Below are positions 2,169 through 5,406 of a DNA stretch of 5,406 nt, piece after piece; position 1 is the stretch's first letter, and each line of letters begins with the position of its first letter. Origin of the DNA: Zoogloeaceae bacterium (GTDB taxonomy: Bacteria > Pseudomonadota > Gammaproteobacteria > Burkholderiales > Rhodocyclaceae); NCBI GenBank assembly GCA_031281985.1, contig JAITEO010000232.1, positions 1 through 5,406 on the forward strand, written 5' to 3'. A model generated the notes under the pieces. It saw only the letters and a program-made list of their open reading frames with translations, had not been told where the DNA came from and did no database searches. Made by a program: the position numbers and the translations under genes.

Positions 2169-2201
2169 AACCCATCCAGAAACCGTCTCAAGCGATGGGT
2201 T
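2169..2201. terminator. Inverted repeat between convergent genes, possible two-way terminator
   Basis: AACCCATC (2169-2176) and GATGGGTT (2194-2201) form a perfect 8-bp stem with a 17-nt loop. It covers the 22-nt gap between the symporter stop (2165) and the antitoxin stop (2188) and runs into the last antitoxin codons. A T-rich stretch (TTTCTTC) follows the stem on the - strand only. It may end TA-operon transcripts and limit read-through from both sides, but there is no strong T-tract. Confidence 0.35.
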
Positions 2202-2487
2202 GCGGAACCATCTTGAAGCCCAGCGCGCGCGCCACCTTGAGCACCGTGGCAAAGCTGGGATTCCCCTCGCCGGAGAGCGCCTTGTAGAGCGTATCCCGAT
2301 GCAGCCCCGTTTCACGCGCCAGCGCCGTCATGCCGCGCGCGCGGGCGACTTCGCCAAAAGCCCTGGCGATAAAGACCGGGTCATCCCCGGCTTCCTCGAA
2401 ACACGCTTCGATAAAATGCTGCATATCGTCTTCGGTTTTCAGGTGCTCCTGAATATCCCAGCGGCGCGTCTTGATTTTTCCGTTCAT
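2188..2487 (-). CDS. Addiction-module antidote protein, HTH (HI1420-like antitoxin)
   Basis: The product is 99 aa, full length for this antitoxin family. The N-terminal half (about 1-42) matches the family start, with RRWDIQEHLKTEDDMQHFIEA (9-29) and then a short acidic stretch, EEAGDDP (31-37). The C-terminal half is a Cro/CI-type helix-turn-helix, with MTALARETGLHRDTLYKALS at 53-72 and NPSFATVLKVARALGFKM at 76-93. In this family the antitoxin follows its toxin, binds it, and usually represses the shared promoter through the HTH. The ATG at 2487 is well supported: GAGGAGGA lies about 7 nt upstream, and the restored toxin frame stops 3 nt before it. The frame is intact although the toxin frame is not, so it may persist as a lone regulator or an immunity gene. 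Confidence 0.88.
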   Translation of the reverse strand: MNGKIKTRRWDIQEHLKTEDDMQHFIEACFEEAGDDPVFIARAFGEVARARGMTALARETGLHRDTLYKALSGEGNPSFATVLKVARALGFKMVPQPIA

Positions 2488-2490
2488 CGT

Positions 2491-2797
2491 TCAATCCTCC
2501 TCGTCTTGCAGTTGCCGCGCCATCTCTTGCGCGGCCTTGATGTCACTTGCCTGCGTGGATTTGTCGCCCCCCGCCAGCAAATAGATAAATCGTCCGTCCG
2601 GTCTGTTTGAAATAGAGGCGATACCCCGGCCCGTAATGGATGCGCATCTCGCTGACCCCATTGCCGACCGGCTTCACATCCCCGAAGTTGCCTTGTTTCG
2701 CGCGAAAGATGCGCGCATTCACCCGCGATACCGCCTGCGAGTCGGTGAGCGCGGCAAGCCAAGCGTCGAATATTTCCGTGGTTTCAATCGTGTTCAT
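2491..2797 (-). pseudogene. RelE/HigB-type toxin (HI1419-like), frameshifted
   Basis: As read, the frame from the ATG at 2797 gives 84 aa and stops at 2543. Residues 1-72 are a good match to the HI1419-type RelE-superfamily toxin (an mRNA-cleaving fold): an N-terminal helical part, then FGDVKPVGNGVSEMRIHYG (38-56), PGYRLYF (57-63) and TIYL (69-72). The family continues LLxGGDKSTQ, but this frame reads FAGGGRQIHAGK and stops. Removing one A from the run at 2579-2581 (+ strand) restores IYLLLAGGDKSTQ and carries the frame to a TGA at 2491-2493, giving 101 aa, the normal length, 3 nt before the antitoxin ATG. The six-C run at 2567-2572 is a second possible site, but it gives a poorer fit (LFAGGGDK). 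The lost part includes the last strand and C-terminal helix, where RelE-type active-site residues lie, so the 84-aa product is probably inactive. A sequencing or assembly error cannot be excluded. Confidence 0.85.
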
Positions 2798-2804
2798 AGG
2801 ATAA

Positions 2805-2833
2805 ATTGTAGATCATTTTATACAACCATCCAA
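2805..2833 (-). promoter_or_regulatory. Putative promoter and operator of the toxin-antitoxin operon
   Basis: On the - strand, TTGGAT (2833-2828) and TACAAT (2810-2805) are 17 nt apart and could be -35 and -10 boxes. The -10 matches TATAAT at 5 of 6 positions; the -35 is weak. An inverted repeat, TTGTA (2806-2810) and TACAA (2821-2825) with a 10-nt spacer, overlaps the -10 and spacer. That is where an HTH antitoxin would be expected to bind to repress its own operon. The -10 ends 7 nt before the toxin ATG at 2797 and no Shine-Dalgarno is visible there, so the transcript may be leaderless or nearly so. Confidence 0.45.
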
Positions 2834-2853
2834 TTTCAAACCGATAAAAAGCA

Positions 2854-2863
2854 GGGTTTTACT
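2854..2863 (+). repeat. Left copy of 10-bp target-site duplication
   Basis: GGGTTTTACT abuts the left terminal inverted repeat of the element at 2864-3110. The identical ten bases abut its right end at 3111-3120. A perfect direct repeat exactly at both ends of an inverted-repeat element is the mark of transposition. Confidence 0.85.
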
Positions 2864-3110
2864 CAGGGCAATCGCATGAATACCTATATCATGACGCGCG
2901 AGCGTTTGCCATGCTGTTCCTCCCCTGACAAGGGGAGGAGAGGAGGGGTTTGCAGCGACAAAATCGGCTTTTTACAGGATTTGTCGCCGCAACCCCCCCT
3001 CAATCCCCCCTTGTCAGGGGGGAGGCAGGCAAACAGGCAGTTTCGCCCACACCATACGGCAGCTTCATCCCATCGCTTGCAAACCCAATGGCATTCATGC
3101 GATTGCCCTG
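2864..3110. mobile_element. MITE-like non-autonomous transposable element (247 bp)
   Basis: The ends are a 21-bp terminal inverted repeat: CAGGGCAATCGCATGAAT then ACC at 2864-2884, and its reverse complement at 3090-3110. They match at 20 of 21 positions (A/G difference at base 19). Perfect 10-bp direct repeats flank the element. I see no believable transposase fragment inside; short open frames crossing it show no known motif. It must therefore have been moved by a transposase encoded elsewhere, or be the internally deleted remnant of an insertion sequence. A 10-bp duplication is compatible with some IS4-type groups, but I cannot assign a family from the ends alone. It fills most of the 435-nt gap between the toxin-antitoxin promoter and rfbB. 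It starts 67 nt upstream of the toxin ATG and ends 122 nt upstream of the rfbB ATG, so it could influence either. Confidence 0.8.
2919..3025. repeat. Nested palindromic repeat inside the MITE-like element
   Basis: The left arm (2919-2965) and right arm (2978-3025) are imperfect inverted copies around a 12-nt centre. Reading each arm inward, they share CCTCCCC(CC)TGACAAGGGG, then GAGG(A/G)GGGGTT, then GC(A/G)GCGACAAA and TC. Each arm also folds on itself: CCTCCCCT-GACA-AGGGGAGG at 2919-2938 (8-bp stem) and CCCCCCT-TGTC-AGGGGGG at 3005-3022 (7-bp stem). The DNA could extrude as a cruciform, and a transcript from either strand would be highly structured. It lies between two diverging gene starts, so it is not simply a gene-end terminator. 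It resembles dispersed intergenic palindromes and may be a second element nested in the first. Confidence 0.75.
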
Positions 3111-3120
3111 GGGTTTTACT
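3111..3120 (+). repeat. Right copy of 10-bp target-site duplication
   Basis: GGGTTTTACT directly follows the right inverted repeat and is identical to 2854-2863. After it the native intergenic sequence resumes and leads to rfbB. Confidence 0.85.
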
Positions 3121-3232
3121 TTTTGCCGCCCCTTGAACGCCACTTGTGGCAAAATCCCCGCTCCTTGGGCAAGGCGCGTTTTGGCGCGGTTCATTCCATA
3201 TACAGGCACGGATAAAGCGGGACGATAGACGC
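3121..3232 (+). promoter_or_regulatory. Upstream region of rfbB-rfbD
   Basis: These 112 nt must carry any rfbB promoter not supplied by the MITE-like element. Visible items are a 12-bp palindrome, GCCACTTGTGGC (3139-3150), followed by AAAATCCCC, and a possible -10 box, TATACA (3199-3204), without a convincing -35. The only Shine-Dalgarno candidate is the weak GCGGGA (3218-3223), 9 nt before the ATG at 3233. No strong sigma-70 promoter is evident. Confidence 0.3.
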
Positions 3233-4300
3233 ATGATTCTGGTTACTGGCGGCGCGGGTTTCATTGGCGCGAATTTCATTCTCGACTGGCTGGCGGCTTC
3301 CGATGAGCCGGTGGTCAATCTGGACAAGCTCACCTATGCGGGCAATCTGGAAAACCTGGCCGCGCTTGCCCATGATGAGCGGCATATCTTTGTCGAAGGC
3401 GATATCGTCGACCGCGCCAAGGTCGATTTGCTGCTTGCCCGCCACAAACCCAGGGCGTTGGTGCATTTTGCGGCGGAAAGCCATGTCGACCGCTCCATTC
3501 GCGGCCCCGGCGAGTTCATCCGCACCAATGTCGAAGGCACGTTCGCGCTGCTGGAAGCGGCGCGCGCATACTGGTCGGGCTTGCCACAAACGGAAAAGGC
3601 TGCCTTTCGCTTTCACCACGTCAGCACGGACGAAGTCTACGGCAGCCTTGCGCCAGAGGCCGCGCCATTTACGGAAACGCATCCCTACGCGCCCAACAGC
3701 CCCTATTCCGCCAGCAAGGCGGCTTCCGACCATCTGGCGCGCGCCTGGTTCCATACCTACGGCCTGCCGGTGACGATCAGCAATTGCTCCAACAATTACG
3801 GCCCGTTCCATTTTCCGGAAAAGCTGATTCCGCTCGTCATTCTCAACGCGCTGGCCGGAAAGCCCCTGCCGGTTTATGGCGACGGTCTGCAGGTGCGCGA
3901 CTGGCTCTATGTCGGCGATCACTGCGCCGCCATCCGCCGCATCCTGGCGGCGGGAGTACCGGGTGAAACCTACAACGTGGGCGGCGGCAACGAAATGAGC
4001 AATCTTATGCTGATCCAGACAATCTGCGCCTTGCTCGATACGCTTGCGCCACGCGCCGACGGCCTCCCCTACGCGCGTCAGATCACCCATGTCGCCGACC
4101 GTCCTGGGCATGACCGCCGTTACGCAATCGACGCGCGCAAAATCGAACGGGAACTGGGCTGGAAGCCGCGGGAAACCCTTGCGAGCGGCATCGAAAAAAC
4201 CGTGCGCTGGTATCTGGAGCATGGCGATTGGGTGGCGCATGTACAAAGCGGCGCGTATCAAGAATGGATGACCCGGCATTATGGCGACGCCCGCGCGTGA
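3233..4300 (+). CDS. rfbB: dTDP-glucose 4,6-dehydratase
   Basis: The product is 355 aa, normal for RfbB/RmlB. This cytoplasmic extended short-chain dehydrogenase uses NAD+ to convert dTDP-glucose to dTDP-4-dehydro-6-deoxyglucose, the second step of dTDP-L-rhamnose synthesis. Visible motifs are the Rossmann nucleotide site TGGAGFIG (5-12), [14 protein letters not shown] (29-42) for the cofactor ribose, ESHVDRSI (82-89), catalytic STDEVYG (131-137, with Asp133 and Glu134), Y158-x3-K162 in [13 protein letters not shown] (184-191) with FPEKLIP (194-200), and the nucleotide-sugar site [15 protein letters not shown] (213-227). All key residues are present. The frame is open from 3146, but the ATG at 3233 puts the first beta strand (MILVTGG) at the N-terminus as in the family, so the 29 extra codons are rejected. 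The last 20 nt overlap rfbD, which implies coupled translation. Confidence 0.96.
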
Positions 4301-5201
4301 GCGTCCCATTCTGCTTACCGGCTGCAATGGGCAATTGGGATGCGTGTTGCGGCAAACGCTCGCGCCGCTGGGAACGGTGCTGGCTTTCGATCGCCAATCC
4401 CTCGATCTGGCCGACGCCGACGCCCTGCGCCGCCGGGTTGCCGAGTGCCGTCCCGGCGTCATCGTCAATGCCGCCGCCTATACCGCGGTAGACAAGGCCG
4501 AGACGGAAGCGGACATCGCCCATGCCGTCAATGCCGTCGCGCCCGGCGTCCTGGGCGAAGCCGCCGCCGCCATCGGCGCGCTGGTGGTGCATTACTCGAC
4601 CGACTATGTGTTCGACGGCACGGCAAAGGGCGCGTACCGGGAAGAAGACGCGCCGAATCCCCTCAACGTCTATGGCAAGAGCAAGCTGGCGGGCGAGCGC
4701 GCCCTACAGGCCAGCGGCGCGCAACACCTGATTTTTCGCACTTCCTGGGTCGTCGGCGCGCAGGGCGGCAATTTTGCCAAGACCATCCTGCGCCTGGCGG
4801 CGGAACGGGAAACCCTGAACGTCGTCGACGACCAATACGGCGCGCCCACCTCCGCCGCCCTGCTCGCCGAGACGACGGCGCGGATTCTACGCCGCTATTA
4901 CCGGCAGACGCGCAAGACGCAGGATTTCCCCTGCGGTCTCTACCACCTGACGGCGACGGGAGCAACCAGTTGGCACGCCTACGCCGCCCTCATCCTCGCC
5001 GAAGCGCAAAAAGCGGGCTGCGCGCTCAAACTGACGGCAAAGGGACTGACGCCCATCCCCAGCTCCGCCTACCCGCTCCCCGCCGCCCGCCCCGCCAATT
5101 CCCGACTGGACTGCACCCGCCTGCAACACACCTTCGACCTGCGCCTGCCCCCTTGGCAACAAGGCGTAACGCAAACACTGCAACAGATTTTTGAGCTATA
5201 A
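4281..5201 (+). CDS. rfbD: dTDP-4-dehydrorhamnose reductase
   Basis: The product is 306 aa, typical for RfbD/RmlD. It reduces dTDP-4-dehydro-L-rhamnose to dTDP-L-rhamnose with NAD(P)H, the last step of the pathway, in the cytoplasm. Motifs seen are TGCNGQLG (13-20), [10 protein letters not shown] (40-49), [12 protein letters not shown] (63-74), STDYVFDG (106-113), Y131-x3-K135 in YGKSK, RTSWVVG (153-159), DQYGAPTS (184-191) and the C-terminal substrate loop RPANSRLD (270-277). The catalytic Thr107/Tyr131/Lys135 set is complete. The ATG at 4281 lies inside the end of rfbB; no good Shine-Dalgarno is seen, so translation probably depends on ribosomes leaving rfbB. It differs from rfbB's usual partner by order only: rfbA and rfbC do not follow within the 205 nt that remain. 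Confidence 0.96.
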
Positions 5202-5210
5202 CGGTAAACG

Positions 5211-5226
5211 GAGGACAGAAGACAGA
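5211..5226 (+). repeat. 16-bp inverted repeat, left copy
   Basis: GAGGACAGAAGACAGA is the exact reverse complement of 5354-5369, which lies within the heptamer array. It starts 9 nt after the rfbD stop. The two copies enclose the terminator-like hairpin and the REP-like palindrome. Confidence 0.7.
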
Positions 5227-5292: not shown

Positions 5293-5406
5293 ATGCCCAA
5301 CACACCGAATACAGACCACAGCCCCCAAAGCGAGCCTGGCGAGCGCTCTGTCCTCTGTCTTCTGTCCTCTGTCCTCTGTCTCCTGCTCCTGAGCCTGAAT
5401 GTCGGG
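5293..5406 (+). CDS. Possible start of a membrane or exported protein (partial, doubtful)
   Basis: An ATG at 5293 opens a frame of 38 codons that is still open at the right edge. GGAG (5280-5283) lies 9 nt upstream as a Shine-Dalgarno sequence. The peptide begins polar (MPNTPNTDHSPQSEPGER) and becomes strongly hydrophobic (SVLCLLSSVLCLLLLSLN), like a signal anchor or leader. The hydrophobic part is produced by the heptamer array, so it may be a by-product of repeat DNA. The same frame can be extended upstream to an ATG at 5227, but that extension translates the hairpin and REP-like repeat. I recognise no family. Confidence 0.22.
   Translation, partial: MPNTPNTDHSPQSEPGERSVLCLLSSVLCLLLLSLNVG
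5346..5380 (+). repeat. Tandem heptamer array (5 units of CTCTGTC)
   Basis: Five head-to-tail 7-nt units occupy exactly 35 nt. Units 1, 2, 4 and 5 are CTCTGTC and unit 3 is TTCTGTC. The related block GGAGGACAGAAGACAGA just after rfbD is the same kind of repeat on the opposite strand. Arrays of this length can change copy number by slipped-strand pairing. Confidence 0.8.

Follow-up and report, generated by a model that had tools for sequence, protein, structure and literature searches.

A complete 247-bp non-autonomous element of the MITE kind, with ISAs1-family ends, lies in the intergenic DNA between a toxin-antitoxin pair and a set of sugar-nucleotide genes of a Zoogloeaceae bacterium. We consider it very probable (about 95%) that this element was inserted by an ISAs1 transposase acting in trans, via a 10-bp staggered cut. 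Directly observed are its inverted ends, its target duplication, an empty site in a related genome, further copies in the host and, within the genus, an insertion sequence that has these ends and a full-length ISAs1-type transposase frame. The insertion is a clean one with an empty site, and it names ISAs1 as the enzyme family that would move such a MITE. The window, meaning the whole 5,406-nucleotide stretch that was analysed, is contig 324 of MAG G000, an assembly of 1.78 Mb in 367 contigs that is 62.6% complete.

Structure of the element and its target duplication

The features of the window discussed below are:

2188..2487, minus strand: antitoxin gene, HI1420 family (TIGR02684, PF21716)
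2543..2797, minus strand: RelE/ParE-type toxin gene, HI1419 family (NCBIfam TIGR02683; no Pfam match)
2854..2863, plus strand: left copy of the target duplication, GGGTTTTACT (read from the sequence; single copy at the empty site of G002, locus L078)
2864..3110, plus strand: complete MITE, 247 bp (inverted ends; three further full-length copies in G000; absent from the orthologous G002 site)
2864..2884, plus strand: left terminal inverted repeat, CAGGGCAATCGCATGAATACC, whose first 18 bases equal the ends of the ISAs1-family elements L049, L050 and L055
2919..3025, plus strand: REP-doublet-like core (inverted repeat; also dispersed through the genome independently of the element)
3090..3110, minus strand: right terminal inverted repeat; 3086-3110 (25 bases) is identical to an end of L049 and to an end of L055
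3111..3120, plus strand: right copy of the target duplication, GGGTTTTACT (sequence; empty site)
3233..4300, plus strand: sugar-nucleotide dehydratase gene, rmlB/rfbB-like (gene name inferred; PF16363, PF01370)
4281..5201, plus strand: rmlD-like gene (PF04321)

A preliminary description of this DNA had proposed 21-bp inverted ends and a perfect 10-bp duplication at 2854..3120, and both are present at those positions, delimiting a complete element of 247 bp. The two arms, 205 nt apart, are complementary at 20 of their 21 positions. Given the base composition of the window, about 8e-4 inverted pairs of such ends would be expected within 3 kb, and about 1.4e-9 inverted pairs that also carry a perfect 10-base duplication, which bears out the earlier judgement that the combination is unlikely by chance. 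We reject a chance origin of ends and duplication together on this expected number, of the order of 1e-9.

The element is non-coding. A tblastn search with the transposase of L055, a same-genus insertion sequence introduced below, finds no transposase remnant in the 247 bp, in agreement with the preliminary description, and the listed open reading frames that overlap the element are mechanical and extend beyond it. At 247 bp and with no transposase gene, the element falls in the size range of about 70-300 bp that is given for MITEs in the relevant part of PMC3733652. No Rfam family reaches its threshold anywhere in the window.

An empty site in a sister genome

The 580 bases to the right of the element have a match in all 20 genomes of the genus, the host's own genome counted. 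G002 alone has a match that spans all of the non-coding DNA upstream of the dehydratase gene (90% over 579 of the 580 bases); in the remaining 18 genomes no alignment crosses the insertion point, and they are uninformative either way. At the G002 locus (L078), the match to the left flank covers its last 43 bases and ends at base 1500 (93%), and that to the right flank starts at base 1491 (91% over 290). The two matches overlap in exactly ten bases, which are a single GGGTTTTACT, and the 247-bp element has no match in this locus. L078 and the window therefore form a filled/empty pair, and the relative with one copy of the 10-mer that the preliminary description asked for exists. This particular insertion postdates the split from G002, unless it has been lost there.

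The family to which the element belongs, with its core, seems to be older than that split, since one-armed, two-armed and longer forms of the MITE are also found in G002. Among them, L065 is 163 bp long and has both arms around a single palindrome, and L243 is a longer copy that has the core and the right arm and lacks the left end. Between the toxin start and the remaining left flank, the G002 locus also holds about 160 bp rich in GC palindromes (L078:1294-1457), with no counterpart in the window. Since G002 lacks the MITE at this locus but has this palindrome-rich stretch, the inserts that this intergenic region acquired seem to differ between the two species.

Further copies in the host genome

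With the 247-bp element as query, 40 of 95 candidates in G000 were scored, giving at least 65 matches, several of which overlap at one place. Besides the window copy, full-length copies are present in C63 (92% identical), C279 (91%) and C31 (86%), together with several partial ones, so that the search for other copies of the ends in the genome yields three more complete elements. The 10-bp duplication is perfect at two of the four full copies, has one mismatch at a third and is missing at the fourth. The second perfect duplication belongs to the C31 copy (L004:1501-1765), which is flanked twice by GGGTTTGAAA; this copy is 265 bp long and has an 18-bp extra stretch similar to CCCTTTGCAGGGTGCAAT. 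The C63 copy (L002:1491-1757) is flanked by AGGGCAGGCT and AAGGCAGGCT, which differ by one mismatch. At the C279 copy (L003), nine of the ten flanking bases differ.

The preliminary description had called the insertion fairly recent. This stands to the extent that it arose after the lineage of G002 had split off (barring a clean loss there), but its divergence from the other full copies in G000 is already 8-14%.

As separate observations, the flanks of the C63 copy look, by eye, like the two halves of a rho-independent terminator hairpin, and a motif similar to the extra stretch of the C31 copy adjoins free copies of the core repeat in L010, L014 and L015.

Ends shared with ISAs1-family insertion sequences

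The ends recur widely among relatives. A 17-base end pattern, with at most one mismatch, is found in 53 of 199 genomes including the host's own, and 48 of these 53 belong to the same genus or family; the reversed control pattern occurs in none of the 199. Exact 21-base matches in named genomes number at least 119 stretches, and among the 80 listed they come chiefly from MAGs labelled Zoogloeaceae, Betaproteobacteria, Accumulibacter, Propionivibrio, Sterolibacterium and Rhodocyclaceae, most of which we take to belong to the order Rhodocyclales. Agreement of coordinates suggests that G012 is the MAG Zoogloeaceae bacterium Cc175_bin34 and G017 the MAG Betaproteobacteria bacterium Th196P3bin129; MAGs of this sort come from termite guts. 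Because these ends are found again in many related genomes, frequently together with 10-bp duplications, the 17-bp pattern can be used to call a family of short elements.

Some of these ends bound full-length insertion sequences. Converging pairs about 1.27 kb apart occur in G037 (seven pairs), in G063 and in G017, the last from the host's own genus. The transposases encoded by L049, L050 and L055 are 379-388 residues long and have PF13808 and PF01609; all three, being the three tested, score 381-406 bits with the ISAs1-family model NF033564, whose cut-off is 70. L055 is the 1273-bp element of G017 and has a full-length ISAs1-type transposase frame. The ends of the window element are identical to those of L049, L050 and L055 over 17-25 bases, so the full-length insertion sequence with the same ends that the preliminary description called for is found, once within the genus. 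The best match to the L055 transposase in a plasmid collection is 82% identical, from Hydrogenophilus thermoluteolus, and is annotated as ISAs1 family; the best match there that bears an IS name is ISPa60-like (69%). The ISAs1 family is described, in the portion of PMC11946415 that concerns it, as having 14-22-bp ends that start with CAGGG and a 10-bp duplication, and the window element has both.

Duplications were also counted across a larger set of elements. We considered 52 elements of 100-1500 bp with both ends within the loci examined, each end at no more than three mismatches in 17 and each taken as the nearest converging pair. A 10-bp duplication is perfect in 19 of them and present with at most one mismatch in 25, leaving 27 that lack one at this tolerance. 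Two have a duplication of 8 bp and one a duplication of 9 bp; lengths of 6, 7, 11 or 12 bp do not occur among the 52, and 24 have none of these lengths nor 10 bp. When the left flank of one element was paired with the right flank of another, none of 2652 swapped pairings gave a 10-bp duplication with up to one mismatch. Perfect 10-bp duplications occur on IS-length and short elements alike: among the ten IS-length elements (1089-1395 bp), five have one (L050, L166, L180, L203 and L217) and five, including L049 and the same-genus L055, have no duplication.

That the enzyme which would act on the MITE is encoded elsewhere in the genome is a weaker part of the preliminary description. Its kind, ISAs1, has been identified in relatives, but the host assembly, at 62.6% completeness, gives four partial matches to the L055 transposase and no intact one. 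The longest, 42% identical over 119 residues, lies in a frame truncated by the end of contig 233. Two short pieces lie in contig 158 (72% and 64%) and the fourth match is in contig 266. The contig 158 pieces adjoin a sequence resembling the ends (3 mismatches in 17), and look like the remnant of an insertion sequence of the same kind. Given this completeness and contigs that break at repeats, an intact transposase gene of G000 may have escaped the assembly. Across the genus, a match of some kind to the L055 transposase is present in 14 of 20 genomes, with a full-length match listed for G017 alone.

A REP-doublet-like interior

The core of the element consists of two GC-rich palindromes in inverted order, CCTCCCCTGACAAGGGGAGG at 2919-2938 and CCCCCCTTGTCAGGGGGG at 3005-3022, joined by a spacer. 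Taken alone, this core matches on at least some 30 further contigs of G000 (a hand count), and is more abundant there than the element with the mobile ends. Alignment of the core in 23 places from 21 loci comprised five MITE copies, one hybrid (L006) and 17 copies without MITE arms. Of the armless copies, six share a longer flank (L010-L013, L015 and L017) and the others differ by eye. In the hybrids, a MITE arm stands on one side and, by eye, the flank of a free repeat on the other; since such forms occur both in G000 (L006) and in G002 (L228), an assembly error is the less likely explanation for them.

As dispersed inverted pairs of GC-rich palindromes, the core copies have the arrangement of REP/BIME repeats, and their layout is that of REP dimers as presented in parts of PMC3733652; REP dimers within longer palindromic sequences are also on record (PMC3733652, section 7). 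A search for a Y1 (RAYT-type) transposase, PF01797, was negative in the one genome G000 at 62.6% completeness, with a control that detects the domain in 5 of 14 named genomes and with the proviso that genomes with REPs need not all hold one.

Same-ended short elements in other genomes are variable inside. Each of the 16 that were compared matches the window element at its ends only. Among the 41 elements under 600 bp and free of N (a subset of the 52 above), 6 keep transposase-coding remnants and are deletion derivatives. In 16 of the 41 there is a GC-rich hairpin with 7 or more perfect pairs, as compared with 32 of 820 shuffled sequences; each related copy is counted separately here, so that the 16 are not independent events, and the other 25 lack a hairpin by this measure. 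When the interior of a Propionivibrio element (L105) was searched in G199, 49 matches were returned, nearly all of the longer ones beginning within a few bases of the first base of the interior. Because they start next to the element end, these matches look like further copies of that MITE and not like free repeats.

Four longer same-ended elements of 409-568 bp were seen in other genomes (L061:950-1517, L227:802-1348, L147:1816-2379 and L127:2039-2447). Transposase remnants are kept in L127, L147, L227 and the inner part of L061, and for this reason all four look like deletion derivatives of an insertion sequence.

Origin and mobility of the element

A static intergenic palindrome of the REP/ERIC kind, spread by recombination or copying and transposon-like in appearance only, would account for a core that occurs alone in many places and for the one-armed hybrids of both species. 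It would leave unaccounted for the exact boundaries, the 10-bp duplication, the filled/empty pair, and the same ends on elements that encode a transposase; we hold this reading to be highly improbable, and for the unit as a whole the empty site in G002 leads us to reject it. For the core repeat by itself it is possible. Just as improbable is movement by a transposase of another family that recognises the same ends, such as an IS701- or IS1380-like one. The ISAs1 transposases do match the IS701 and IS1380 models, weakly and below the cut-off, but the elements with these ends encode ISAs1 transposases, 10-bp duplications are found on IS-length and short elements, and the printed ISAs1 description, as far as PMC11946415 gives it, fits.

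Many MITEs are internal-deletion derivatives of insertion sequences, and the palindromic interior might accordingly be decayed sequence of an ISAs1-family element. Derivatives with these very ends exist, as the 6 of 41 short elements with transposase-coding remnants attest, but this element retains no such remnant, and has in its interior a match to another dispersed repeat. Comparison with eight IS-length elements, three of them with a transposase shown, returns beyond the terminal 25 bp only 11-base words at an E of about 0.5, the level of chance, and with no above-chance match past the ends the window element is not a simple deletion derivative of these eight. We reject that origin with respect to the elements compared, on the missing remnant and the missing match, and regard descent by internal deletion in general as unlikely.

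We thus favour a non-autonomous MITE moved by an ISAs1 transposase, a reading that the several copies, the 10-bp duplications, the empty site and the same-ended insertion sequences all support, and that agrees with the preliminary description, neither of whose two refuting conditions is borne out. Counting against it are the C279 copy (L003), which has no duplication, a host assembly with partial transposase matches only, the five IS-length elements (of ten) and the 27 elements (of 52) that lack a 10-bp duplication, and the missing match to the eight IS-length elements past 25 bp. In this mechanism, an ancestral pair of IS ends may have come to flank one REP-like repeat, which would have made the whole a transposable unit. 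An ISAs1 transposase, encoded in this host or in DNA passing through, would act in trans to cut and join the MITE ends, and a 10-bp staggered cut at the target would give rise to the two copies of GGGTTTTACT.

The palindromic interiors raise the question of how REP-like repeats spread where no RAYT is seen. A tentative and rather doubtful answer would be that ISAs1-type MITEs of Rhodocyclales repeatedly capture and carry REP-like doublets, that a DDE transposase spreads these repeats, which elsewhere would need a RAYT, and that the many free copies and the one-armed hybrids are recombination escapees. The differing interiors and the hairpins in 16 of 41 short elements are the slender basis for this suggestion, but the interior searched in G199 occurs chiefly within the MITE.

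Relation to known elements

Mobile elements of this kind are known; what is additional here is the mosaic of ISAs1-type ends and a palindromic repeat in the interior. With ISAs1-family insertion sequences the element shares ends that start with CAGGG and the 10-bp target duplication, but it has no transposase gene, measures 247 bp against about 1.27 kb, and has an unrelated interior. With the bacterial MITEs NEMIS, RUP, Nezha and MITEPye1 it has in common that it is short, non-coding and intergenic, with inverted ends that match an insertion sequence and with a target duplication. NEMIS, RUP and Nezha are not known to belong to the ISAs1 family, but to other IS families. A mosaic element with an ISAs1-family insertion sequence was reportedly described by Szuplewska and Bartosik in 2009. 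MITEPye1 differs in its IS1182-type ends and 4-bp duplications, according to the pertinent part of PMC11578231. To REP dimers and BIMEs (GTAG and CGTC families) the core is alike in its two inverted GC-rich palindromes with a spacer and its dispersal in the genome; unlike REP systems with a RAYT, G000, 62.6% complete, has yielded no Y1 transposase.

A MITE with ISAs1 ends is not described in the consulted portions of seven open-licence papers (PMC3542288, PMC9208149, PMC3733652, PMC3606827, PMC11946415, PMC11578231 and PMC5756416), and a named relative may exist. Excerpts from two of these report three MITEs in Aeromonas (PMC5756416) and 147 complete or partial MITEs in Anabaena (PMC3542288), in neither case with the IS family given there. 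We found no literature on the insertion sequences of termite Rhodocyclaceae, and for MITEs of Accumulibacter a single paper came up, on Shinella flocs.

Genomic context

The element sits in a divergent stretch, between the toxin start at 2797 on the minus strand and the start of the sugar-nucleotide gene at 3233 on the plus strand. Family matches confirm the neighbours that had been named, a toxin-antitoxin pair (of HI1419/HI1420 type) and polysaccharide genes (here sugar-nucleotide genes). Within 2700-3300, one promoter-like site was found against 0.6 expected and no terminator-like site against 0.7 expected; both counts are at the level of chance, and an effect on the expression of the neighbours is therefore unsupported. 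Folded as single-stranded DNA, the element is predicted to be far stabler than shuffled sequences (z = -10), which makes an effect on transcripts that cross it possible.

Elsewhere in the window, positions 203-2165 hold a gene for a DUF485 protein followed by a sodium:solute symporter gene, a layout that we take to be the yjcH-actP acetate permease pair. After the rmlD-like gene, inverted copies of ACGGAGGACAGAAGACAGA lie at 5208-5226 and 5354-5379, about 130 nt apart, and a GAGGACAGAGGAC tract similar to ACGGAGGACAGAAGACAGA adjoins the core repeat in L027, which suggests that these sequences are yet another dispersed repeat.
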